Shown: one piece after another, positions 3,058-45,720 of the stretch
Position numbering within the stretch: the first letter of the stretch is position 1
Layout of the letters: each line of letters begins with the position of its first letter
Assembly (NCBI GenBank): GCA_029204225.1
Contig: CM055092.1
Span: 85,631,878-85,695,877 of the forward strand
DNA length: 64,000 nt
Source of the DNA: Diphasiastrum complanatum
Taxonomy: Eukaryota > Streptophyta > Lycopodiopsida > Lycopodiales > Lycopodiaceae
Direction: 5' to 3'
Program-made: the position numbers and the translations under genes
The notes under the pieces: generated by a model
The model's input: the letters and a program-made list of their open reading frames with translations, nothing else
The model's database searches: none
Told to the model about the DNA's origin: nothing

Positions 3058-3918
3058 GTATTCAAATCCAAAGAGACAGAAAGCATAAATTGATTTACAT
3101 TACTCAGCAAAGATATATTCACAATGTCTTAATCAGATATAATCTAATGAATTGCAAATTATCTCTCACAGATGAAGCCAGGAGTCAAGATGTCGAAGGA
3201 CCAGTGTCCCTAAACAATCGAAGAGAAGGAGCACATGCATGAGTATCGCTATCATTCTATAATAGGATCTCTTATGTAATAGCTTTTGTAGTCAATTTCT
3301 TAAGTCAGTTTATGACCAATCCTTGTATTACACATTGACAAACTCTTATTAGGGTTTTGAGATATCTTTGAGCTATTGTGGACCTCTGCATTTGTTATGG
3401 AATATTATCAATGGTCATTTAGATGAAAGTTGGGCAGGAGATGTAGACACTCGTACACTTTCGAATGAACATTCTTCCTAAAAAATGGTCCTATTTCATG
3501 GAACAATCGCAAGCAAACTTTGATTGCTCTATCTTCTACTAAATCAGATTATATCTCAGCCTCTCAAGCTACAAATGAAGTAATATGGTTGAGAAACTTA
3601 TTTTAAGATATCAGTCAAAATCAATATGCTCTGACAACTTTATTTTGTGATAATCAAAGTGCTATTGCTTTATCAGCCAACCCTAGATGCTATTCTAGGA
3701 GTAAGCACATTGAAAGTAAGTATCACTATGTTAGAAGCAAAGTTATCAATAGATGAAAGTTGGGCAGGAGATGTAGACACTCGTAAATCCACTTCCGAAT
3801 TTACATTCTTCCACAACAATGGTCCTATTTCATGAAACAATCGCAAGCAAATTTTGATTGCTCTATCTTCTACTGAATCAGAGTATATCTCAGCCTCGCA
3901 AGCTACAAATGAAGTTGT
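3058..3918 (+). pseudogene. RNase H region with an internal 330-bp-spaced duplication
   Basis: Decayed RT-RNase H connection and RNase H in several frames. Readable parts are the LSQFMTNPC region near 3300-3330, DESWAGDVDTR near 3421, and LIALSSTKSDYISASQATNE near 3520-3580. The block from DESWAGDVDTR through SASQATNE occurs twice, at about 3421-3590 and 3751-3918, each followed by different sequence. Between the copies lies the next RNase H segment (LFCDNQSAIALSANP, about 3640-3680). This is a partial tandem duplication after insertion, since neither copy sits in a continuous frame. Confidence 0.75.
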
Positions 3919-4970
3919 TTTCTAGTTTTCTTTGTGTTACTGCACAGTTTGCAAAAATACTCAAGAATCACTCACAAGTGGCTCCGACATATGAAGCTGA
4001 TAGTGCCATGAAGTGATCCATTGTCCTGTCACCAAAAAACATAGGTACGCTCCCACAGAATTGTGTCACGTATATCGACAGATAAGTTCTAATAAACCGA
4101 ATAAGAAATGCAGCAGGGAAACCTCTTAAGTTCCTCGCTGATAGTACGCTTACCTATTGAAGTGCTGCGTGACTATTCGATGGTTTGTGAGCACTCAAGT
4201 CCAGCTACAATCACAGTCTTTGCACGTAAATGCATCCACCTGCTTGTACGTATATCAACCCTCTAGGGCCGGTACTCTTGAGAGAAGAGTGGCAGGAGGA
4301 GGATGATGGTAATATTGCACGAAATGAAAGCCGTAGTAAATCAAAAAAAGAGAAGAGGATCACTCTTATAATTTTCTTCAATTTAGGGCTGATACTGATT
4401 ATCCGGACATACGACGGGTGGAATGGCGCCAAATAAATAATTCAAATTTTTTAGCAACTAAACTTTTCATTTTTTGGTTTTGTTTTTTGTTTTTTGTTTG
4501 CTCAAAGAAAGGGACGGCAAGCACCCTGATTCCTTAAAGGCTTAAATTTAAGAGTCTTATTCTCATTTGATGTGGTTCATGCCCTACATGTCATGTTGTA
4601 TTTAGGTGCAAATTTTAAATGCCCATTATCATTGTTGCACTAAAATGAAAGTTAACAACAAGTCACATGTGTCGAGGAAAAGCGGATGGAGACCGGGAGG
4701 CAAAGGAGATACAAGCCTCCAATATGAAGGTGAACCTCTTGTTAGAGATGTTGGTCATCATCATGACGAGAGTCATTACTTAATGTGTGGCTATCATTGA
4801 AATCAAAAGTAAAAATGTGCACGGAAGTATGAATCTAAATGTTGTTCATGGAGGGGGGTAGGCACACACAAACTTGGAAAACTAGTAATTGTACACCAAG
4901 AAACTATTGGAAGCTGGCATGTATAGAAAAAAATTTTTTCCTACAATCTTAGTGAATTACACTTAACATG
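3919..4970. other. No recognisable gene
   Basis: Non-coding stretch after the family B element. Two overlapping opposite-strand open frames at 4211-4436 show no motif and are treated as chance. Near 4480-4500 there is a T-rich run with TTTTG repeats. Confidence 0.5.
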
Positions 4971-6499: not shown

Positions 6500-6535
6500 G
6501 GGTTAAGACCTTGCATTTTGACATGCACTAGGGCT

Positions 6536-6543
6536 TATATAAG
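6536..6543 (+). promoter_or_regulatory. TATA box of LTR C
   Basis: TATATAAG within GGGCTTATATAAGGAGGCC. It is conserved at 60790-60797, and a variant (CTCTATATATTGAGGCC) is in the inverted copy near 27155-27175. It is likely the RNA polymerase II core promoter of the LTR. Confidence 0.6.
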
Positions 6544-6730
6544 GAGGCCAAACTCGCCCTACTACACCATCATTTGGTTGATTCATTGGCATGATATCTC
6601 TCTACTCTCATGCTTCGTATTCTTTGGCTTGGGGGCTTCTAGAGTTCTATTGGTTGCTTCGACTTGGTTGGGTAGTTTCTCTAGCAGTGTGTTCTCTATT
6701 GTTTTGTCTCGTAAGCAGGCAACTATTACA

Positions 6731-6743
6731 TGGGCATCAGAGC
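6731..6743 (+). other. Primer-binding site, family C
   Basis: TGGGCATCAGAGC directly follows the LTR end and matches the initiator-Met tRNA site TGGTATCAGAGC with a small change. The second copy at 60967-60979 reads TTGGAATCAGAAC. Confidence 0.65.
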
Positions 6744-7905
6744 AAGGCTTACACGAAGATTGGAGAACTTGGAAAAGTGCTTTTTTTTGTCGAAATTTTG
6801 GTGTGAATCAATTGGAATTTTCTTCTAGGAGGAGATCATGATGGCAAGTGGGTGTAGTATCATGGTTTCCATTTGCATGTTGCTAAGATCCATTTCTCTC
6901 GAATTTTTTTTGGGTTTTATGGAAAATTGTCCTAGGAAGCCAATTTGTGATGCTTTTTTGAAGCTGTAGATCTGAACTTTCCAGAAAGTGTACTTATATT
7001 TTAGGGATCATTAATGATGAAATTAATGATGCATGCCGGTTATTTTAATGATTTACGGTTCTAGGCTATGTTTTGGTCAAAATTGCTTGTTTTTCATGCT
7101 TTTTGACTCAAAATTGATAGTAAGAACACAAATCCAACAAAATCGGATCAATTAGGTGGCTATAATTCTGTAAATTGATTGGATGTGCTAGAGAAAGAGT
7201 TGCATGTCATAAAATTCCACTTTATAGTAAAGAAAAAATCAAAAAATATCTAAAAATCATCATTTTTGCTTGTTTTTTTTTTTTTTTTTCATAAAGTTGG
7301 ATAGTAGGTGGCATGTAGATCTTGTAAAGAGGTGAACCAAAGTCTTTTGAATCTTTACCTGAAGTTAGAGCCAAGAATTCCATGAATTGGACTTGTAGAA
7401 GGTCAAAAAAGACCAAAAACTAGCTTGTTTTTGCAGGTTTTGGGGGATGGATTGCTCTCAATCCATAAGGAGATCATGTTAAAAATGTATACAACATGAT
7501 TAACATTCCTTTTGCCTTTGCCAGCAAGCTATCAACCCTGTAAATGGATGGCCGGTGGGTTATGCTTATTCTCCATCAATTTTGAAGCTATTTTGACTTC
7601 TACAAACCAAGAAATCTTCGTTCTCAGCCTATACTACTTCATAGGATCTGTATGAATGCTTCACGGAATTCTTATAGACCATTTAAGACTGTTGGTAACA
7701 TCACTTTTGAGTTTGGAGAGGTGTCTGACTGATTTTACATCATATGCACTACTAGAAGTGTGACCAACTACAATTTTTCAGACGTTCTGTTCTCACACAT
7801 GTAAAGCCTAGGTGTAATTTGGTGCATTGTAGCCCAAGTTATAATCGTTTGAAATTTTGGCAGTTTTGTGAGTGAAATTGACAAAATCTGAAATTGTTCT
7901 TATTG
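6744..7905 (+). repeat. Family C internal leader, non-coding
   Basis: Closely matches 60980-62103 over about 1.1 kb. Both copies have many stops in all frames and no gag or pol, so this is untranslated leader or a non-autonomous interior. Includes the shared phrase AGGGATCATTAATGATGAAA near 7000-7020. Confidence 0.7.
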
Positions 7906-8610
7906 CATGCCAATCTTTTTCCTAATTTGTGGTACTGTGCTTGCATGTTGATTTTAAGTGTGGTTCTGACATGCATGAAGGATTTACAGTCGATTTGAGT
8001 GGTTATACGCATGTGCTCGGATGTTTGGGTCACAAATCAATGATATTGGCTGACAAATTCCGTAAAACTGGAGTTTACGTAAAAAATTCCATACTGACGT
8101 TTTGTGTTGATGTAGTGTGCTTTGCATGCCAGTTAGACATTGGTTCAGTAACATTATAAATCAAACAATACTTTGATTTTTTGATTTCGATTACCTATTG
8201 TACTAACAATATTTTCGTCAGAATTTTTTGAATTATGTAAATTGTGCCAAAAATCGAGTTTTTTTTTGGAAAATCAAAATTTCGGTCATTTTTCGTTATC
8301 TATGGGATGAGTTTAGATTAGTGAATTGACTATACTGAGTTTTTCAGTCAGAGTTAGTCACACTGATTTCACTAAGGCTAAATTATTTCTCGGTAATAGA
8401 TAGTCTAAAATTGAGAAAGAACCGCAATGAATTTGCTGACAGTTTCTACTATATGATATTTTAACTTTTGGAGTATGGTACACCCAGGTTAAAAGTTCAA
8501 ATTGTTATTTTTTTTTGGTTGAATTTTAAAATTTGGTTAAAATTTAAAATCGTTTACTTATCAGATATATTTCTAATCGATACTGATTGTTAGAAATGGG
8601 TCAAGCATTA
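7906..8610. other. No gene seen
   Basis: AT-rich, no coding or repeat match noticed within the window. It could be more of the family C interior, because the second copy is cut at 62103 by other sequence. Confidence 0.4.
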
Positions 8611-9014
8611 GGGCCCTTTTTGAACTCAAAAAGGGCCTCTTCCTTGCCTAAACATGTTTGCTAATTAGGATTAATTAGTTCATTAATCGTCCTATGTGGC
8701 AGCTCACCCTGGGTTTATCATGGGTTAACTTCTATTTTAATAGGCTTCACTTAGGCCTAGCATAATATAGCAAGGACACATCCCCACAATTATGCTATAT
8801 AGTCTTGTCCTATTATCATTACTACGGGTTGAGGAAGTAGGGTTAGACGAGGGTTAATGGCTGGGTTAGAATTTGAGATCTATTTTACACCATTGGATGT
8901 GCCATGTCATATGGACCACTCCATCTCAATTGTCACTCTCTTATTGGTACACATGTCGTCATTAACACTAATTATAATTAGTGAAGAGGCCCTTTTTGGA
9001 CTCAAAAAGGGCCC
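8611..9014. mobile_element. TIR element of 404 bp with palindromic ends (Tourist-like MITE)
   Basis: Terminal inverted repeats of about 33 bp (8611-8643 and 8982-9014) match at all but about four positions. Each begins GGGCCCTTTTTGA and is itself a hairpin, since GGCCCTTTTTG pairs with CAAAAAGGGCC a few bases later. Flanks are TTA on the left and TAA on the right, compatible with TA or degraded TWA target duplications. No transposase is encoded. The GGGCC start recalls Tourist/PIF-Harbinger MITEs; the superfamily is inference. Confidence 0.75.
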
Positions 9015-9075
9015 TAATGTAAACGTTTGTGCAAGATACTGTGAAAATTGAATTTTAAAATCCTCAAACAAGCCT

Positions 9076-17357: not shown

Positions 17358-17931
17358 TTGAGAAGATCCAAATTGGAAACCTGTACTACCGATTCCTCTT
17401 CAAAATGTTCATATCTCTACATTGCATGCAGAGGTGCGTATAATAGAAAAAAATATATATCTTCCCATCTTGTTGTCATGGAATTCTGAGCTAGAGGCAT
17501 CTGCGAAGGAAGATATTTCCAGATTAGAGAATGTGTTGTCCAAAGCAGGCTTACATAAAGGCCATGTTAAAATAAAAAAAGACGACAAGCTATTAGGTAA
17601 AATAGGAAATATTCCATGCAAGCTGAGCATTGGAAGATCCAAAGCTCGTAGATTTTTGACAAATTATTCTAGAAAAGCATCCAAGATTCAATACTTGGTT
17701 TGGAAAGAGATAATAGCTGCAACTCAATATTTCAAAGAAGAAGGTTCTACTCGTCTACGCAAAGTAGAAGTTTGGAGAAAATTAGACAACATGGTGAAAT
17801 ACTTGAGAAAATATAAATTTTTAAATACTGATGTACAAATGATACAAAAAATAACCAGTGAATTTGTGGATGCAGTTTGTCGGTCAAATTTCAGATCAGG
17901 AGAAGGGACTGGAAATTCTCTATACAACTAG
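17358..17931 (+). pseudogene. Unknown transposon-like protein, C-terminal fragment
   Basis: Open from about 17362 to TAG 17929-17931 without an ATG start, so it is an internal or 3' exon or a 5'-truncated gene. It begins NWKPVLPIPLQNVHISTLHA and aligns with NLKCVLPIHLKYVHICTLHA at about 37786-37845 (15 of 20 identical), so both come from one family. The rest is basic and helical (KARRFLTNYSRKASKIQYLV, VWRKLDNMVKYLRKYKF). It is not a retrotransposon protein. I recall similar uncharacterised transposon-encoded proteins with a conserved His-x-Leu-His-like segment, but cannot name the family. It is joined on the left to family X sequence. Confidence 0.6.
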
Positions 17932-36322: not shown

Positions 36323-37930
36323 TGGATGCTGCAAAAGTCCTTCAAGTGCACAGAGATCAACAAACAATCGAAAGACAAAAGTTGGCCAAGCATCGAAAGA
36401 AATGTTTGAAATGTCCACAAAAAAATTTGGGCCTTGTTATTGATGACATGGATCAGAAGAAAACAATGTTGCCTCATTTTGTCAGATCGAGCTCTGACAC
36501 CACTGAAGAGAATAAACAGGTAGAAATTGATTCGTCTAGACTATCCTAGAACCCGAATGGAATTCAATTATGTCTGCCGGCTACTGCCTGCTATGACAGA
36601 GCTACAATCCTCCAGAGTGTAGACAGACACTACTGACCTATGTTATAATACGTTTAAGCATTCAACAAGATAATCTAGTGTGCGAAACTATGAATAAACG
36701 GCTGATTACAAACAATCAACAATCAGACATAAAAGTATTCGAGATCATTCAATAAGTCATTATCAATGATCGTCTTTCTTGTAAGTGTTGTTGTGAAATC
36801 CACACAACACGTCGGCATGAGAGATACGATCTCTCTCACGAACTATATCAGATCGTCTCGCTTACTAGCGAACGTCCGAAACATAAGGTAGCAACATTGT
36901 GCTTAGCTCATATTGATGTTTTATCAATTTGATGTTCCAACCGATTCTCTCAATTTCAATTTGCTTATATGGATGGAGGGATATATGGTTTAAGTTAATT
37001 AGAAATTACAAGAACAGTTGATTAAGCACGTTCCAATGGTATCCAGATTGCCTCCAACATCATCTATGCAGGAGCTTGTCCTTCTGGTTTTTTCTTGATT
37101 TCCTTTGTACTTGCAGCGTGAAGATTTGCCACCTTTCGGTCTTCGTGTCTTGTTCGCCTTCGTGTGTTCTTTGTCCTTCGGCTTCACCATTGAGCTTATT
37201 TTTGGTCCACGAACATTTTACCTTCGCGTTCATCTCGCATTCGGGTGTTCTTCAGTCCACAAACATATGACCTTTGTTTTTGGGTATTTTTCAGTCCTCG
37301 AAGCTTTGGTCTTCGCTTTCAAGCAGTTCCCTTGTGTTTGTGCGGACATGAGCTCAAAATCTAACAAAGCTTTGTGGCTGGAAACATTTTGTTTCTTCCG
37401 ATAGCAACATTCTAGGTACTTTTCTATGACGTGTTTTCTATTAAAATTATATTTCTATTACAATTATATTACTCATGTTACTTGCTCTATTATAGGTTTT
37501 GAAAGAAAAGCATGGAATTCTATCATGGATATTTTCACATACAGATTATGGAAAGATTATAAAAGAACATATGGAGGGTCAAAAACTTACAATGGAAAAT
37601 CATGGCAGTTTTCAAATTCAATGGCACCTTGCAGGCGATTTGAAAAAGTTGAAATGCATATATAATGTTTCTCATGGGGCAACATCTAAGCATCCATGTA
37701 TTTACTGCATGAAAGATTGCTATGATATAAATGTGGGATGAACAAACAATGGTCCACAAACAAGGGAACTAGAAAATCCAAATCTGAAATGTGTTTTGCC
37801 AATACACTTAAAATATGTACACATATGCACATTGCATGCTGAGATAAATTTGCAGCACATCTTTCTACACCATGCCACATATTTTGCAAGAGAGTACGGG
37901 AGCTTAAGTACTTTAACAAGTAAAGGTGAG
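36323..37930 (+). pseudogene. Unknown transposon-like gene with introns (DMDQ family)
   Basis: Two exon-like blocks. Block 1 (36323-36519) is bracketed by a splice acceptor (TTGTATTTTCAG) and donor (AACAG then GTAGAA). It encodes KVLQVHRDQQTIERQKLAKH, KCLKCPQKNLGLVIDDMDQK and KTMLPHFVRSS. Block 2 (from 37496, acceptor CTTGCTCTATTATAG) begins in the matching phase: HGILSWIFSHTDYGKIIKEH, QIQWHLAGDLKKLKCIYNVS, HGATSKHPCIYCMKDCY. One TGA (about 37739) follows, then NLKCVLPIHLKYVHICTLHA to about 37920. This is not a retroelement protein. The IDDMDQKKT...PHF pattern and the C-x2-C segment recall uncharacterised transposon proteins; the name and function are unknown. A homologous later part is at 17358-17931. 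Block 3' end is replaced by a minus-strand copia. Confidence 0.6.
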
Positions 37931-38059
37931 AATGTCCTCCAAATCCAAGGTAGAACTCCAAATGTCCTCCAAGCCAAGCTCCAAGATGCTTTCCCAACTC
38001 CAAGCTAGGATGCCTCCACCTGCAAGTAAGGATCTGCAAGGCTCGAAGGATATCTCCTC

Positions 38060-39066
38060 CACCTGTGTCATTTGCTATAGAAAGAAATTTATTAGCACCA
38101 TTGAAAGAGTGCAAGGTTGAGAATGTGTCCTTTTGGAAAGTCATGTGGGAGCTAGCCCCACTATCAATCCACCAAGTGTCCTTTGAGTTGCTTTTGCTTG
38201 TTGGAGTGGATGTAGATGCCATCAAAGATGAGATCTCCTCATCTACATCCTCTTCATATGCAAGGTTCCCTGGTTTGTCCTCCTTCTCTTTTGATCTCAG
38301 CCTCTTGTAACATTCGGATGCATAATGCCCCTTCTTTCCACAAAAGAAGCATTTTTGCTTTGACTTGTCCTTTGAGCTTGATGCATCATCCTCTTCTTTG
38401 GCCTCTTTTGGATGCTTCTTGTTGCCCTTGAATGAGAAATTGGCTTTCTCATCTCCATCCTGGAAAGACAATGAACTCATTCTTGCCTTGGTGTGGAACA
38501 TCCTACACTCTTTAGCCACTAATACACTGTGAAGTGTTTCTATAGTTGGCAAAGAGTCTTGGATGGCAAAACTTTGGACCAAATTTGCAAAATCATCTCC
38601 TAAACTATTAAGAACAATTTGTACAAGCTCTCCATCGTGAATCTTCTCTCCAATGGAAGCCAACTCCCTATTTAGAGACTTAATTATGAGTACATAATCC
38701 TATGCACACTCCTCACTTCTTTTCATGCTTTGCAAAATCTGATTTCTAAGCATGAGAACCCTCGAAGTGTTACTAGATTCATAGATTGATTTTAAAGACT
38801 CCGAAGCCTCTTTAGCACTTTTACATGATGATGCTTCCCTCAAAAGATCATTGCTCGCATTCATTTTCAAACAATGAAGTGCTACCCTATATCTCTTTTT
38901 GTATCTCACTAATTCCTATGCACCTAGAGATTCATCTTCATCCTCAATCAAGAACTCATAAAGGTCTTGGAGCACCAAGAGTGACTCCATCCTAACCTTC
39001 CAAATAGCATAATTTGTAGAATTCAATCTCTCACTAGCTTCTAGAAGGTATGCTCCAATATATTCC
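38060..39066 (-). pseudogene. Copia gag-protease start, minus strand
   Basis: Gag starts MEYIGAYLLEASERLNSTNY (39066) and stays in one frame with only two stops (38916-38918 and 38700-38702): YAIWKVRMESLLVLQDLYEF, HCLKMNASNDLLREASSCKS, SLGDDFANLVQSFAIQDSLP. It continues to the zinc knuckle CFFCGKKGHYASEC near 38350-38310 and the protease site DTWWIDSGASSHMTF near 38165-38120. It ends at SIANDTGGG, about 38060. Relatively young decay. Upstream it is fused without a leader to gypsy integrase sequence. Confidence 0.88.
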
Positions 39067-39079
39067 ATCTTACTAGTGA

Positions 39080-39973
39080 CCTCTACAAACAAGAAATATA
39101 GTTTGTATGAGACTTTGTTTATCACTTGGATAACCTTAAAAGGAGTGCAATACCTAGGCGTCAACTTACCAGTTTTCAAGCCGCTAGAGTGACTAGGGAC
39201 TCTAAAAAACACCCAGTCGTTGACCATGAATACCTTGTGCTTTCGAGATAGATCAACATAGTGCCTTGCCCTGCCTTTGGCACTACTTATGCTATCTTTA
39301 GCCAGCTACAACATTTCTTCCATATCCGCAAGGAAATCAGCTATGGCTTGCACCCGTAGGTTTTTCATGTCAACATTGATTGGTGATCGAGGTTGAAAAC
39401 CATACATAAGCATGAAAGGGCTGAATCCGGTTGCTTAATGTTTTGCACTGTTATATGCAAATTCCACCAATAGAAGGTATTGTTTCCAATCAGACTGCCG
39501 ATGGCCCACATATGCTCGAAGCATATCCTCCATCGTCTGATTGGTCCTTTCTGTTTGACCGTCTGATTTTGGATTATCTGTAGAACTCATGCTTAAAGTT
39601 GTTTCCAACTTTTCAAATACTGCTTGCCAAAAATTCCCAGTGAATTTTGGATCACGGTCACTAACAATATCGCAAGGTAGCCCGTACAATCGAAAAAGCT
39701 TCTCAACAAACAGTTGAGCTAGTTCTGAAGCTTTAATAGTAGTTTTCGTTGGGATAAATTGAGCAAACTTCATAAGTCTATCAACAATGACCCAAACCGA
39801 TTGTGGCCCTTTCCTGTACGTAGAAGCCCGACCACAAAATCCATAGATATACTTTTTGACTTTTCTGTAGGAATATCTAAAGGATGTAATAGGCCACTAG
39901 CTTTAAGTCTCTCTGCTTTATTTAACTGGCACTTTGTACATTTAAGTACATAGGCCTCTACCTGACTTTTCAT
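39080..39973 (-). pseudogene. Ty3/gypsy integrase, minus strand
   Basis: Reading from 39973: zinc-finger end CTKCQLNKAERLKASGLLHP, then ISMDFVVGLL (first catalytic Asp), a frame break near 39770-39800, then DIVSDRDPKFTGNFWQAVF (second Asp), TDNPKSDGQTERTNQTMEDM (catalytic Glu) and WKQYLLLVEFAYNSAKH. After a stop, the post-core part VNDWVFFRVPSHSSGLKTGK, LTPRYCTPFKVIQVINKVSY follows at 39227-39080. Integrase joins element cDNA to the chromosome. All DDE residues are visible but frames are broken. No chromodomain is seen because copia gag begins at 39066. Confidence 0.88.
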
Positions 39974-40129
39974 CTTAGGCCACCAAAATTGCCTTCAAAC
40001 TAAGTCAAGTGTTCTTTTTATACCCGGATGTCCTACGCATGGACTATCATGACACTCATGCAAGATTTGGGCCCTTATAGTGTTATTCTCTAGTACACAC
40101 ACCTTTCTTTTATGAAACAAAATCCTGTT

Positions 40130-40741
40130 TCAAATGAGGAAATCCGTTTCAGTATTTCCTTGATTCGAGGAATTTTGCAAATTTGAATCAACCCCCGAAA
40201 GTACTTGTTGCCAATACTTTTCAAAAAAAGGATCAGACTCATATAGTCCTTGAAGAAATTGAAACAACCCTGGTTCTATAGCAGTAAAGCATAACAAATA
40301 AATGACTGGTAACCGACTCAAAGTATCTACTAGAGTATTTTGACTTCCTTTACAATAACGTATAGAAAAGTCAAAGATTTGCATCAGCTCAGCCCATAGA
40401 GCTTGCCTCCCCTTTAAATTTGTAGCATCATAGAAATATCGAAGAGTCTGATGATTTGTCAAAATTTCAAATCTGGCTCCACACAAATAGTGTCGTCAAA
40501 TTTTCAAGGAATGAACAATTGCAAACAGTTTCTTCTCATAGGTACAATATCTAGACTGAGCAAGATTGAGTTTCTTGCTTTCATAAGCCACAAGATGTCC
40601 ATCCTGCATTAAAACAGCTCCAATAGCATAATCACTGGCATCGGTCCTAACCACAAAAGCCTTATTAGGATCACCATTCATGTTGATGGAACTTTGGATA
40701 TGGGCGATTACAATGGATATTTTGTCATGAGACGAGCTCAT
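40130..40741 (-). pseudogene. Ty3/gypsy RNase H, minus strand
   Basis: RNase H of gypsy type: FVVRTDASDYAIGAVLMQDG (catalytic Asp), HLVAYESKKLNLAQSRYCTY, EKKLFAIVHSLKI, a stop (40496-40498), then RFEILTNHQTLRYFYDATNL, RQALWAELMQIFDFSIRYCK and GSQNTLVDTLSRLP. The RT is missing: sequence upstream of about 40675 does not match RT and is instead the start of another relic on the plus strand. The stretch 39974-40129 is the degraded spacer to integrase. Confidence 0.87.
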
Positions 40742-41677
40742 GAATTGACCAAATTATATATTAGCGATCCTCTCAGAGATTGGCATGTATAGCCACATGT
40801 AGAGAAGGATCGTATCTTAGAGGCATTGCATAGGAAATTTCCCTGTGACACTCCATTTAGTGATAAATCGATTAAGACAAAATTTGGCGAGCAGATGCGT
40901 CACTATCATGACTCTGCCAACAATCTCAAAGGCCAGGTAGACCAGGCAAGCCAAGCTCGTGTAGCAAAAGTAATTGGACTTTGCTCATGAGAGAGTTTAG
41001 GAAAAACCCCCCATAAACATGACAAGCATAAGAAAGCCACAAGAGTAAGACTGAGCATGAATAGTATTAGTCATCTTAGCTCTGGGGGAAAACAACGTTT
41101 TGTAGATTATTTTGTGAGTAATTTTTAACCATAAATTTCATTGTTAAGTTCTCTTCATAGCCTAAGTCAACTAACTTATATTCATAGCTTAATTGCTAAC
41201 AAGTTTCTTTGATGTGTCTACAGAATACGATCTATGGTAGAGAGCTAACTGAAGAAGAATATAAACTCTGTTAATTTCATTTTGACGAATGAAAACAATG
41301 TTATTTGTAAAGACTTGAGTGATTAAATGCTCTTCGAGTTGTTGGATGATCGTTGGGATACAAAACAAAATGAGAAAGTTGAGTTTAGAGTATGTAAGTC
41401 ATCAATGACATTTAGATATCAAATAGACAAACAAATGCTGACTTTGTTGCTGTATCATAGAAGATGAATAAAATCCAAAAATGAATGGAAGCCACTAGAT
41501 CAAGATTATGCATTAAATCATCATGAGCAACTTTAAATAACAGTGAAAAGAAATGACAACATTCTTGTTATGGAAGATTGGAGTCTCAATCACATTTGAT
41601 TAGAACTAGACATGTTGCATTTTGATCTTCTTCAATACTATCAATTTCAATTGAATGGTGTTAAGGTACGGTTTTTT
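40688..41677 (+). pseudogene. Unknown gene relic with introns
   Basis: A readable plus-strand frame from about 40688, with only two stops before the first intron: MGDYNGYFVMRRAHELTKLY, VEKDRILEALHRKFPCDTPF, KTKFGEQMRHYHDSANNLKG, then basic HKHDKHKKATRVRLSM and GGKQRFVDYF. A perfect donor GTGAGT at 41114 and acceptor TTTGATGTGTCTACAG ending 41223 bound a 110-bp intron; the next exon reads NTIYGRELTEEEYKL. Weaker coding continues to about 41677 (LLDDRWDTKQNEKVEFR, ELDMLHFDLLQYYQFQLNG). No domain recognised. It converges on the protease gene to its right. Confidence 0.45.
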
Positions 41678-41915
41678 ATATGAAAATTTTATTTTTTTGT
41701 TTCTTAGTGATTAAGTTTTACAAGATAAAAGAACTTAAATAGTTTCTCATGTGTAGGTAAGAGCAAGGCAGGAAGAGCGTATAAAATGCAAAATACATAG
41801 GAACATCCATCAAAATTGAAGATCCTTAGAATTTGAACAGCGTGATTTTCTATTATGTCGTATAATTTTTTGTATACATCATGTTTAAAAATATAGTAAC
41901 CGCTCAAATTGAGTA

Positions 41916-43648
41916 TCATTGTTCAAGTTGAGGATCTTTCTTTTCTATGATCTCTATATCCATTTCTCTATATGGAAGTAACTTTCTTGGAGAATGTGTA
42001 ATTGAAACTGGAAATGAATTTTCAATAAAAAATTTTATTGTCTCCTGCCAGAAATGCATTATCTCTTCTGGGGAGACCTTCGAGCAAGAGAACTGCAAAA
42101 AAAAAAACACAAGCACATGTTATTAATGAAGAATAAGTGATTGAGAATTATGAATATGTGATTCTGATTGTGATTGTGAATAAATAGATAACCTCAAGCA
42201 GATTTAGAAGCTTATCATGTAGTGCAAGCCAATTAAAAAAATGTTTGGCATTGTATATCGTATACCAGCCACAACTAACACAGTCAGTCTGTTGGGAGGA
42301 CTACAACGTGCATGTGATTAAATTGAAATCTACAAAAAAAAAAACTGTGTCAAATCGATATCAGATAAAAATACCTTTGTATCAAACCTTTTAAGCTTTG
42401 TAAAGGTTGTTGCACTTGGCATTGGAAAGAGTTCCAATACCTTCTGAATAGAGCACTTCGGATTACAAACACCCTCATCGTTGAGATACAAAGACAAAGC
42501 ATCTAAACTCTAGTGGCCACTATAATCAGAAATCAATATGTTCTTTAGACTGCAAGTAAAATCACAATTCATATGAAAAAATCAACTTATTAAAATGTGA
42601 AAAGCATACACATACTTGTGTATGCATGGGAGCACGAACAATGGAGTCCCCTCTCTGATGTTTTTTATCATCTCAGAGTGCATGTGGCAAAATCGAGAAA
42701 GTGGAAAGCACTCATGAATTTTATGAAACATGAGACATCTAAAAAAATTGGAGTTTGAAAAAACTAAAGGCAAGAATATTGAATGCCCCCCCCTCCTACA
42801 TTTTCTCCTAACATGCTACCCTTATTTTCTAATTCACCTGTATCTAATTTATTAATTTATTTTGGAAAATTGTAAAGTAGACCTAGAGATTTAAGATGTG
42901 TAGATAGTAATTGGTCATATTGTACATATTTTGGAGACCCTACAAATGTAAGTCCAGGGAGTGCATGAAGTAGGGAGTGATACAGACAAACCCAAAATGA
43001 ATTCTTTTCAAACAATGAGTCATTCTTTAACTTTACAGATTGGTCTAATTCTGTTGTTGACAGTGAGGGGGGGGACATAGGAGGTTTAGGAGGAGAAGAA
43101 GCTTTAGGAGGAGATGGAGCAGATTTAGGAGGAGAAGAAGATTAAGGAGGAGGAGACGGAGGATATTTAGGAGAGCTAGGAGATTTAGGAGAAGAGGAGA
43201 TTGCTCTCAAGATATCCTTGAGAGGAGACACATGTGAAAAATCTCTGGCTCTTTGAGGAATGCAGAAAGACGTCCTCCTCTTTGAGACGTCCCACTCTAC
43301 ACCCGAAATACGAGGCAATCAGTTGAGGTTCCTTCCAAATTTTTTTTTGACCATCGATTTTGGAGGAGAGGACGAAGCTGGTCGGAAGCACTCATCAAAT
43401 TTTTCATGTGCCCCGTAGCCTAACACAATCGTCAAATCCTTCGACGTGATAGTCACCCGCTTGGCATGAACAACTACAACAACACAATCTGAAAACAATT
43501 TCACTTTGAAATCCTCATAGGTTGTAGCAATTTCAGATGATGAGTCTGTTGAATAATCTATTGTTCCCTTGATTGAAACATCTACATCTGTTCCAATCGA
43601 AGTAGATGAACAAAATACTAATATAGGGGTTGAAGCTTAAGCATCCAT
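41916..43648 (-). pseudogene. H3-like / Pro-rich / Ulp1-like (C48) protease gene
   Basis: Minus-strand gene with at least five exons. The first block (43648 to about 42810) has a segment KLFSDCVVVVVHAKRVTITS, KDLTIVL (about 43505-43425) matching the last helices of histone H3 (HAKRVTI..KD). A Pro/Ser-rich part follows (SSPKSPSSPKYPPSPPP), then SFWVCLYHSLLHALPG. Exon 2 (about 42735-42617) ends PLFVLPCIH. Exon 3 (about 42554-42373, acceptor TTTTACTTGCAG) reads LKNILISDYSGH...SLDALSLYLNDE. Exon 4 (42300-42193) reads SSQQTDCVSCGWYTIYNAKH. Exon 5 (from about 42098, acceptor TTTTTTTTGCAG) ends at TGA 41916. His, Asp, Gln and Cys are ordered and spaced as in Ulp1-type cysteine proteases, which cleave SUMO-like substrates. 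Phases agree from exon 2 on. Four or more stops make it a pseudogene. Confidence 0.6.
43430..43505 (-). other. Histone H3-like helix segment
   Basis: The residues HAKRVTITSKDL match the near-invariant end of H3 (HAKRVTIMPKDI) at 9 of 12 positions, preceded by LFSD where H3 has LFED. The rest of H3, including the tail and first helix, is absent, and the downstream sequence is unrelated. Confidence 0.6.
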
Positions 43649-43977
43649 AACTTCATATTATGAGAAAACCCTCTCGTTCTATAATCCTCTCTGACTCTCT
43701 CCCAACTGAAACTCCTATTAATATATCAACTCTACTCGATGTTCATGTATACTTTATAAATAAGGATAGTATATTTCTTTTAATGATATATAAAATGTTT
43801 TTGATATGAGAGAGGATGAAGTCTTCTCAATTTTTGCACAACAATTCTCAGAATTTTTTGACATAATTGATTATAGTTATAATGATCTTGAAAGTGAGAT
43901 AGATTTTGATTAAGATGGTGATTGGAAATCTGGCAAGGGGGCATTGTAGGCCATAATTGAGAAATCGAAAGCCTATG

Positions 43978-44849
43978 GGCTAAAAGCATGGTTTGGTAGT
44001 ACAACATGGAGTTTAAAGGACACTACCTTTTTGGGTAGAAATGTTCTTTTGTATTATTATACACTATTTTTAAATAGAGGGTACCTTCAGATTCACCTGC
44101 ATGGAAACACATCAACAAAGAGTATTCGAGCTTTACCAACGAGTCAAGAAATGTGAGATTTGGTCTTGCAATAGATAGTTCAGTCTAGAACTTGTTACCT
44201 TTGCAATAAAGCATATTGTTTCCATGATCCATCGTGGATATCCAGCATCGCGCACGTGAGCTTCTTTTCCATTTACTCATCGAACAAAAAATCATTTATG
44301 TTTGGTCCAATATGTGTCATGTTGATATATGGATTAGAGCTAGAGAGCAATCAAATACAAATTATTCGGGTTCATGATAAGGTATCATATGTCTCGTTGG
44401 ATTTCATGTATTTTGATGGGAATGAATCATAGTTTGACTTGCCATAATGTTTTAACTGTGCCTTGAAAATTGGTCATCTAACATATCATTGGAAAGCACT
44501 TGTCAAGTGCTTTCTAACACACCAAACTCCATTGGAATTGGATTTACCACTAAAAAGATATGTCATTTTTAATGTGGACTCAAAAAATTATGATTAATAA
44601 AGTCCCCATACCTTTGACTTGCCATAACTCTTTAACTGTGGCTCGAAAGTACGTTATGTAACATGTCAAAGCACTTTCTAACGCACCAAACTTCGCTGAA
44701 ATTGGACTCACCTCTAAAAAGTTATGTCATTTCTAATGTGGACTCAAAACAATTATGAGTGATAAAATTCCCAAAAAGTGAAATGTACTACCAAAAGGTA
44801 CAATGAAAAATGGGTTCTTTTTTTGTACCACCAAACCATGCTTTTAGCC
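43978..44849. mobile_element. Non-autonomous TIR DNA transposon, 872 bp
   Basis: Ends are 25-bp inverted repeats with one mismatch (GGCTAAAAGCATGGTTTGGT at 43978, its complement ending at 44849). TATG lies on both sides (43974-43977 and 44850-44853), as a 4-bp target duplication. Interior has no transposase and contains a tandem repeat (44434-44770). Removing the element plus one TATG restores the interrupted exon frame. Superfamily undetermined. Confidence 0.8.
44434..44770. repeat. Tandem repeat, two units of about 183 bp
   Basis: GACTTGCCATAATGTTTTAA at 44434 and GACTTGCCATAACTCTTTAA at 44617 each start a unit containing AGCACTT..CTTTCTAAC, CACCAAACT and TAATGTGGACTCAAAA. Lies inside the 872-bp TIR element. 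Confidence 0.8.
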
Positions 44850-45469
44850 TATGAAGAAACTTTGCCGAATGAGGAGGAATTTTTGGAATTAAAAAAAAAA
44901 CATCCTCCAAGGAATCATTATATCTCTTCGAGAATTGTAGAAGTCATTGGAGGACATGACATTAGCAGAACAAACATCATTAAATTTGACGATCATGATA
45001 TGGTAAGTAGATATTATATTGGTTTTGATATTGTGCAGTTTTCTTTCAATCAAAAGTTGAAGTTTGAAATTGTATTGTTATCTTTCATTCTAAATTTATT
45101 TGATTAACTCTTTTATAGGATTCTATTGAACTAGATTCTTTTGGTATGAGACATGGAGGCCTTTGACGTATATCACTTGGGAGAAAGAATGTATCTCTTT
45201 CTCATTATTTGAAAAACTTTGAAAATAATGAGATTTGTATATATCATGGATCTTTTAATCCATATGCTGCCACTGTCATTATGGCCTTCAAGTCGTTATC
45301 TATTAGTTTAAGAGGCTCTATTTACTCTAGAGGAACGTATAAAATAGCTTTTTGTGAAAATGGATCTGGCCATTACAATATTGGGTTATACCCCCAATGA
45401 TACTACAAAAAGATCATGTACAATGGCCATTTATTCAGGTTACAGAGATATGAGCAAACGTAAAAATCT

Positions 45470-45720
45470 AGAATTTTTGGATTAGGGAGATTATTCTTCC
45501 ATGACAATACCATATGCTTGAATCTTGAAGATGATGAATGTAAGAGAAGCTCCCTATGATCTTGCTTACAAGATAAACCACAACGGAAAACACATTATGG
45601 AGAAACCACCCAACCAAGTAGAAGCAACCAATCAACTCTAGAAGCTTCACCCCCAAGCCAAGGAACAAGAAGCATGAAGGTAGAGTGAAACCTTGGCAAT
45701 GCATCAATGATCACAATTCC
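45470..45720 (-). repeat. Family C LTR fragment, minus strand
   Basis: Inverted match of the last part of LTR C (CAACCAAGTAGAAGCAACCA, complement of the sequence near 6650-6690 and identical to 27038-27057). The upstream two thirds, including the TATA box, are missing. On the minus strand it ends near ATCTTGTAAGCAAG (45565-45578). Confidence 0.7.

Follow-up and report, generated by a model that had tools for sequence, protein, structure and literature searches.

A degraded mobile-element gene of Diphasiastrum complanatum that probably joins a divergent histone H3 to a C48/Ulp1-like module

The window, the whole 64,000-nucleotide stretch of Diphasiastrum complanatum DNA analysed here, carries on its minus strand a relic which, judged by its sequence and that of its relatives, very probably derives from a mobile-element gene fusing histone H3 to a C48/Ulp1-like module. 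We propose, with a probability of about 0.6, that the four exons of this degraded gene once encoded one protein, composed of a divergent H3, a Pro/Ser-rich linker and the C48/Ulp1-like module; that this protein acted against silencing is possible but less likely than not. The element that carries the gene is a DNA transposon that fits none of the families compared, with three further genes (B, C and D) and the terminus CATTAGGG.

The window relic and its exon structure

The exon structure was derived from an alignment of the window copy with five relatives (L005, L006, L014, L015 and L017), and the aligned copies represent one gene of four exons. The features in the window are as follows.

43424-43525, minus strand: H3-derived segment of exon 1, the end of the fold with HAKRVTITSKDL (Pfam Histone and DNA homology)
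43085-43423, minus strand: Pro/Ser-rich linker, ends approximate, with in-frame TGA and TAA
42616-43084, minus strand: remaining part of exon 1, for the N-terminal half of the C48-like module, with a frame change in the window copy (six-copy alignment; homologous to frames that are open in L017 and L045)
42375-42519, minus strand: exon 2, with the His of the C48-like module (six-copy alignment)
42193-42300, minus strand: exon 3, QQTDCVSCGWY with the oxyanion-type Gln and the Cys (alignment)
41916-42092, minus strand: exon 4, C-terminal part, stop codon at 41916-41918 (alignment)
43536-45538, plus strand: gene B, belonging to the same element and running divergently from the H3 gene, its first ~140 residues gone
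41312-41697, plus strand: a piece of gene D from the same type of element, running convergently to the H3 gene (tblastn E 2.5e-35)
37502-37870, plus strand: gene C fragment, a candidate transposase and a candidate member of the same insertion (tblastn E 1.5e-19)

The sequence HAKRVTITSKDL lies at 43433-43468 on the minus strand, where the original prediction had recognised a near-H3 carboxy end, and the minus-strand frame 43319-43636 holds VHAKRVTITSKDLTIVLGYG. Pfam Histone matches the exon over 43424-43570 with an E value of 1.8e-6 and 28.6 bits, above the cut-off of 26.4; neither the H3 tail nor the beginning of the fold is present. DNA homology to the relatives begins only at 43525, and the tblastn match extends to 43585. 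The plus strand at 43536-43673 encodes part of the divergent gene B, whose pieces in the window were detected by tblastn with E values of 3e-15 to 3e-44. The exon 1 first drawn therefore stands in its H3-like part, whereas its upstream part is the complement of gene B. Both divergent genes, the H3 gene and gene B, have lost their 5' ends in the window copy.

The Pro/Ser-rich linker follows the H3-like segment as predicted, and is interrupted by an in-frame TGA (43319-43321) and TAA (43142-43144). Together with the frame change inside exon 1, these stops make the window copy a relic, as had been supposed; the copy is dead. Three near-identical copies (99%) on C1 duplicate it, and two of them, when compared, have 7.55 kb in common with the window relic at 99.4-99.7%. 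Being duplicates, they lend no independent support. In addition, retrotransposon-like frames were seen by eye in the translations at 37689-40495, in the interval from the gene C fragment to the gene D fragment, and a second gene C fragment with 33.6% identity to type B gene C lies at 17365-17811, away from the H3-C48 relic.

In the window, exon 1 ends with CAC AA followed by GTATGT. Exon 2 starts at 42519, where TTATAG is followed by TGGCCAC in the window, and by TGATCATTGG at the same boundary in L014, L015 and L017. Exon 3 starts with TCCTCCCAACAG and exon 4 with TTCTCTTGC. The codon for the Trp after the His in the relatives is TAG in the window (42510-42512). This alignment corrects the exon 2 boundary given before: the acceptor that an ISDYSGH exon would require (inferred as GCAG before TCTAAAG, 30 bases upstream of 42519) is present in L005 and L006 and is missing from L014, L015 and L017. 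With exon 2 starting at 42519, the His of catalytic type falls in S-G-H. Of the four catalytic residues, two had thus been misassigned, as PLFVLPCIH and ISDYSGH are not the sources of the His and the Asp. The third motif was placed correctly, QQTDCVSCGWY lying behind an acceptor within 42265-42300 with its Gln six residues ahead of the Cys.

The two halves of the gene in relatives across the genome

The 1.74 Gb genome from the same source as the window was searched with two queries. With the window H3 exon, 150 matches were scored from 3687 first-look candidates; with the L017 frame, which comprises the H3 fold, the linker and the start of the C48 part, 113, counting the query itself, were scored of 15221 first-look candidates. 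Each of these 113 reaches into both the H3 fold and the C48 region within a single reading frame, the shortest covering only the last dozen residues of the fold, with a query biased toward fused copies and with some places that resemble duplicated contigs. At least 38 of the 150 H3-exon matches lie within a listed fusion match. Ten of the 113 L017-frame matches are free of stops. The L045 copy is open over all four exons, from MAQTKQTARR to the exon 4 stop, and has HS instead of the HW typical of most copies. As relatives carry both halves in one frame and L045 is open throughout, the window holds the relic of one fused gene, and the suggestion that the H3-like part and the Ulp1-type module belonged together is borne out. 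A (CA)n coding repeat (THTHTH) of variable length follows the MNSI motif in exon 2 of L014, L023, L046 and L047, and differences in its length accompany frame changes in several copies.

Less damaged relatives show a whole histone fold and an H3-like tail tip, a larger unit than the H3-like helix originally described. Relatives score 41-100 bits against Pfam Histone; L013, for example, opens with MARTKQTTRG and shows a complete fold (Pfam E 1.6e-19). Three types of element were distinguished. In type A, which carries the fusion, the 86-residue fold of four copies gives a gapless alignment to host canonical H3, with 37-42% identity. In type B (L032, L033 and L034) the fold is 56% identical to host H3, and in all three copies the H3 gene stops directly after the fold, with no C48 part; L032 starts with MARTKQTAR, followed by a long RS- and Pro-rich tail. 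Type C (L035) starts with MARTESTAR and has a fold 49% identical to host H3. The folds of types A and B are 34-35% identical, and those of the three types 34-51% identical pairwise. In L032 and L033, roughly 300 RS-/polyproline-rich tail residues precede the fold. Two different H3-like genes (3322-4317 and 6528-6830), with gene C pieces between them, were observed in one 9.5 kb stretch of L035.

In the relatives the tail tip is near ARTKQTAR, and the remaining tail is not H3-like. The tips of the type A copies L013 and L045 are each one residue off the MARTKQTAR of type B; the exact ARTKQTAR tip was found in none of the type A copies compared, Arg2 often being replaced by Trp or Gln. All 11 type A tails that could be read have Lys4, counted as 10 of the 11 aligned rows (L024 is out of frame) plus L013. 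From Lys4 to the fold there is no lysine in L013, L017 and L045, and one in L015 (GRKRD). Position 4 is Glu in type C, which weakens a general argument from Lys4.

For the second half, Pfam including PF02902 gave no match at E<=10 with single window exons or two spliced relatives, the best PDB match (E 0.34) was to an OTU protease, and an NCBIfam search returned nothing of note. Profile-profile comparison gave a different result from the Pfam HMMs, so that the lack of a C48 profile hit, set beforehand as a refuting outcome, holds for the latter and not for the former. A profile of seven rows, compared by hhalign with a C48 profile built from four sequences only (L049, L050, a SENP8 chain and an Ulp1 fragment), yielded Prob 80, E 1.4e-5 and, across 71 columns, a score of 43.2; HW and QQ..CG line up in order with the SENP8/Ulp1 motifs. 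In the controls, the best of 100 column shuffles scored 22.1 and the reversed profile 14.3; against the host SENP8-like L049 alone the match was weak (E 0.043, Prob 1.2). PF02902 was found at three places in the genome, and L049 and L050 were treated as host C48 genes, serving as references only.

The catalytic-type His is kept in 11 of 11 aligned copies and the Trp after it in nine of 11, the exon 3 Gln in seven of seven readable copies and the Cys in six of seven. The position of the expected Asp is Asn (LKMNSI) in all eight readable copies, which makes protease activity doubtful. By its profile and motif resemblance, the second half is related to C48/Ulp1, with uncertain activity. The AlphaFold model of H3-C48 exon 1 was too poor to use (mean pLDDT 33.6).

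Pairwise dN/dS was calculated for 15 copies (105 pairs), with pairs dropped if dS was up to 0.08 or the sites numbered <=60. The values were 0.44 for the H3 fold (101 pairs), 0.51 for the linker (73 pairs) and 0.63 for the tail beyond residue 9 (38 pairs), and 0.48, 0.18, 0.22 and 0.45 for exons 1 to 4 of the C48 part (102, 97, 85 and 64 pairs), the lowest on exons 2 and 3; the pairs share history and the linker is about equal to the H3 fold. The third-position excess was 1.51 for H3, 1.43-1.68 for C48 exons 1-3 and 1.15 for exon 4, compared with 0.90 and 1.39 in short intron controls of 84 and 99 bases. These values indicate past purifying selection on both halves, short of proof.

The mobile element that carries the gene

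Genes B and D adjoin the H3 gene in types A and B, gene C occurs in all three types, and gene B is found in type C too. The L017 copy unites the terminus, gene C, gene B, the H3-C48 gene and gene D. Subtraction of 13 canonical H3 matches from a list of 150 left 137 H3-like matches. For 22 of these a listed gene C match is no more than 15 kb away, against 0.27 expected by random placement. The two genes are on opposite strands in 20 of these 22 pairs and 2.9-4.2 kb apart in 19. For type B gene C, 113 copies were scored at 74-97% identity to the query, most above 90%, and these copies are young.

For those pieces of genes B, C and D that were searched, Pfam and PHROGs gave nothing convincing and no transposase family; in particular, no Pfam match to a MuDR-type, Tnp2, KDZ or hAT transposase was obtained among them. 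A PDB search with gene C exon 2 gave no match, and its AlphaFold model was too poor to use (mean pLDDT 41.8). In IMG/VR, 39 stretches fit the gene C pattern and none was confirmed as a relative. The gene had originally been regarded as a possible passenger of a Mutator-like (Kaonashi) or KDZ-type transposon; location in a mobile element is upheld, and the placement is not, as the tested pieces of the other genes match neither kind in Pfam. The N-terminal exon of gene D at L033 1141-1454 appears BAH-like by eye, with no Pfam match.

The ends are best resolved in type B. Two copies in different flanking sequence have the same starting point to the base, and in one of them the left end recurs inverted at the right (36 columns, 97%). 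The 31-base terminus with at most one mismatch occurs 656 + 629 times, and a control 0 times. In five facing pairs of termini, read at both ends, the first base is C and the last G in all. When the flanks of these five pairs and of a short derivative in the window were joined, uninterrupted relatives were found for three of the six, and five empty alleles differ from the join solely by the absence of its terminal C and G. Therefore, type B makes no target-site duplication, none being present at the three sites. The flanks had pointed to a preference for CpG targets; this was abandoned, since the empty sites assign the terminal C and G to the element. The short derivative, at window 8606-9019, is a 414-base two-ended element (MITE) with type B inverted termini, and an empty relative of its site is present on C9 (L067).

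In type A, the start CATTAGGGGAAATATGGGC lies at L013:840, and among the 39 other scored copies 34 have their start no more than ten bases from that point. The 32-base terminus with at most two mismatches occurs 330 + 302 times, and a control 0 times. The right end and the target sites of type A were not found among the copies compared, so the absence of a target-site duplication is established for type B only. A terminus at L015 6200 was rejected as the type A right end because its interior faces away from the H3 gene, and is read as a separate insertion. A break at L017:6911 is common to 34 of the 39 other copies; it has no CATTAGGG-type end and would leave the N-terminal part of gene D beyond it, and is probably L017's own disruption rather than a true end. 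The joined L039, L034 and L040 were likewise discarded as an element left end, as L037 and L038 indicate truncation there. The termini at L013 840-871 and in L052 contain an internal near-palindrome, for example GGCCCTTTTTG..CAAAAAGGGCC, which could form a hairpin.

Proposed role, alternatives and known systems

Histone marks are a host route to transposon silencing. By analogy with the VANC proteins of VANDAL elements, we infer each step of a mechanism in which the H3-C48 protein would enter nucleosomes or bind H4 on element DNA. Its tail keeps Lys4 and is without a counterpart of Lys9 or Lys27, so that the element chromatin, as proposed, could not bear the usual silencing marks. The C48 part may remove or bind SUMO on silencing factors at the element, and the net effect would be that the element shields itself from silencing, as VANC does for VANDAL by another route. 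This anti-silencing role is put forward tentatively. A bolder and rather doubtful extension is that the elements represent an undescribed plant DNA transposon superfamily without target-site duplication, with its own H3 variant as a core gene, which in types A and B keeps Lys4 without the silencing lysines, carries a fused deSUMOylase-like module in type A, and would give self-chromatin that cannot be silenced. If true, an element with its own altered-tail H3 would attack histone-mark silencing at its substrate, and whether transposons encode their own chromatin would become directly testable in one plant. With its many partly intact copies and its clean empty sites, the family can be dated and is amenable to experiment.

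Three other explanations were weighed. H3 and Ulp1 fragments might be functionless passengers, transduplicated and amplified with a fused frame that had no role. A precedent is the hAT-captured H3 of Pseudocercospora fijiensis, present in 784 copies, of which, according to the available part of PMC6710886, all amplified ones are inactivated, and 103 of the 113 L017-frame copies here have stops in exon 1. However, dN/dS is below 1 in both the H3 and the C48 parts, an H3 gene is kept in all three element types although their folds are only 34-51% identical, and the tail tips of types A and B stay near H3 while the remaining tail does not. We consider such functionless transduplication unlikely. 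A real H3 fold could also be joined to an unrelated domain whose HW and QxxxxxC mimic Ulp1 by chance, which would agree with the failure of HMM and PDB searches, the Asn at the expected Asp and the small reference alignment of four sequences. Such mimicry is improbable given the score of 43.2 against at most 22.1 in shuffles, the occurrence of HW, QQ and CG in the SENP8/Ulp1 order, and dN/dS values that are lowest on exons 2 and 3.

An endogenous virus, with H3 and the protease as viral chromatin and maturation genes, would account for several genes including an H3 and a protease-like one, and for tested pieces of B, C and D that match no transposase family. The inverted terminal repeats, the short two-ended derivative at window 8606-9019 and the clean empty sites argue against it, as does the lack of a confirmed gene C relative in IMG/VR, and a viral origin is very improbable. 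We retain a mobile-element gene encoding an H3-C48 protein as the preferred reading.

Mutator-like elements make target-site duplications of about 9 bp, and CACTA elements have CACTA termini, a Tnp2 transposase and 3-bp duplications. Unlike the former, the present element gives no MuDR-type match in the gene pieces tested and no duplication at the three type B sites; unlike the latter, it has CATTAGGG termini, no Tnp2 match in those pieces and no duplication in type B. The gene C exons tested give no KDZ match. The element differs from hAT elements in having no hAT transposase match in the pieces tested, and no duplication in type B compared with their 8 bp. Compared with host canonical H3 (L026 and L029), the tail tip is similar and the 86-residue fold aligns ungapped; however, fold identity falls to 37-42% in type A, 56% in type B and 49% in type C, the remaining tail is replaced and type A has a C-terminal fusion. 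The HW and QxxxxxCG motifs of SENP8/NEDP1 and Ulp1 (C48) occur in type A in the same order, whereas type A has Asn at the expected Asp and no C48 HMM match at E<=10.

Among the papers listed in searches of the open literature, with subscription papers and bioRxiv outside the scope of the search, neither an H3-C48 fusion nor a plant transposon H3 was found described. Fungal transposons with H3 and plant transposons with Ulp1 are both known, and a fusion of the two is apparently undescribed. The H3-carrying hAT of Dothideomycetes, as presented in the available part of PMC6710886, likewise has H3 captured in a DNA transposon with hundreds of copies, but it has its own hAT transposase domain, a 20-bp TIR and an 8-bp TSD. 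According to the same part, most P. fijiensis copies are inactivated and cut short, 11 of 784 being near full length, and putatively active ones exist in P. tritici-repentis; the word Ulp1 does not occur in the text of that article. The Kaonashi (KIU) VANDAL MULEs and CACTA-ULP elements, in the available parts of PMC13317346 and PMC2528002, also bring an Ulp1 domain into plant DNA transposons, but with MuDR- or Tnp2-type transposases, neither of which was found in the tested pieces of the present element, and the word histone is absent from the text of both articles. The same parts report that KIU-carrying VANDALs cause hypomethylation of related elements. VANC is the functional parallel drawn on here: as far as the available parts of PMC13317346, PMC10398659 and PMC5735166 describe them, the VANC proteins of VANDAL elements counter the silencing of their own family, and some of them carry an Ulp1 domain.
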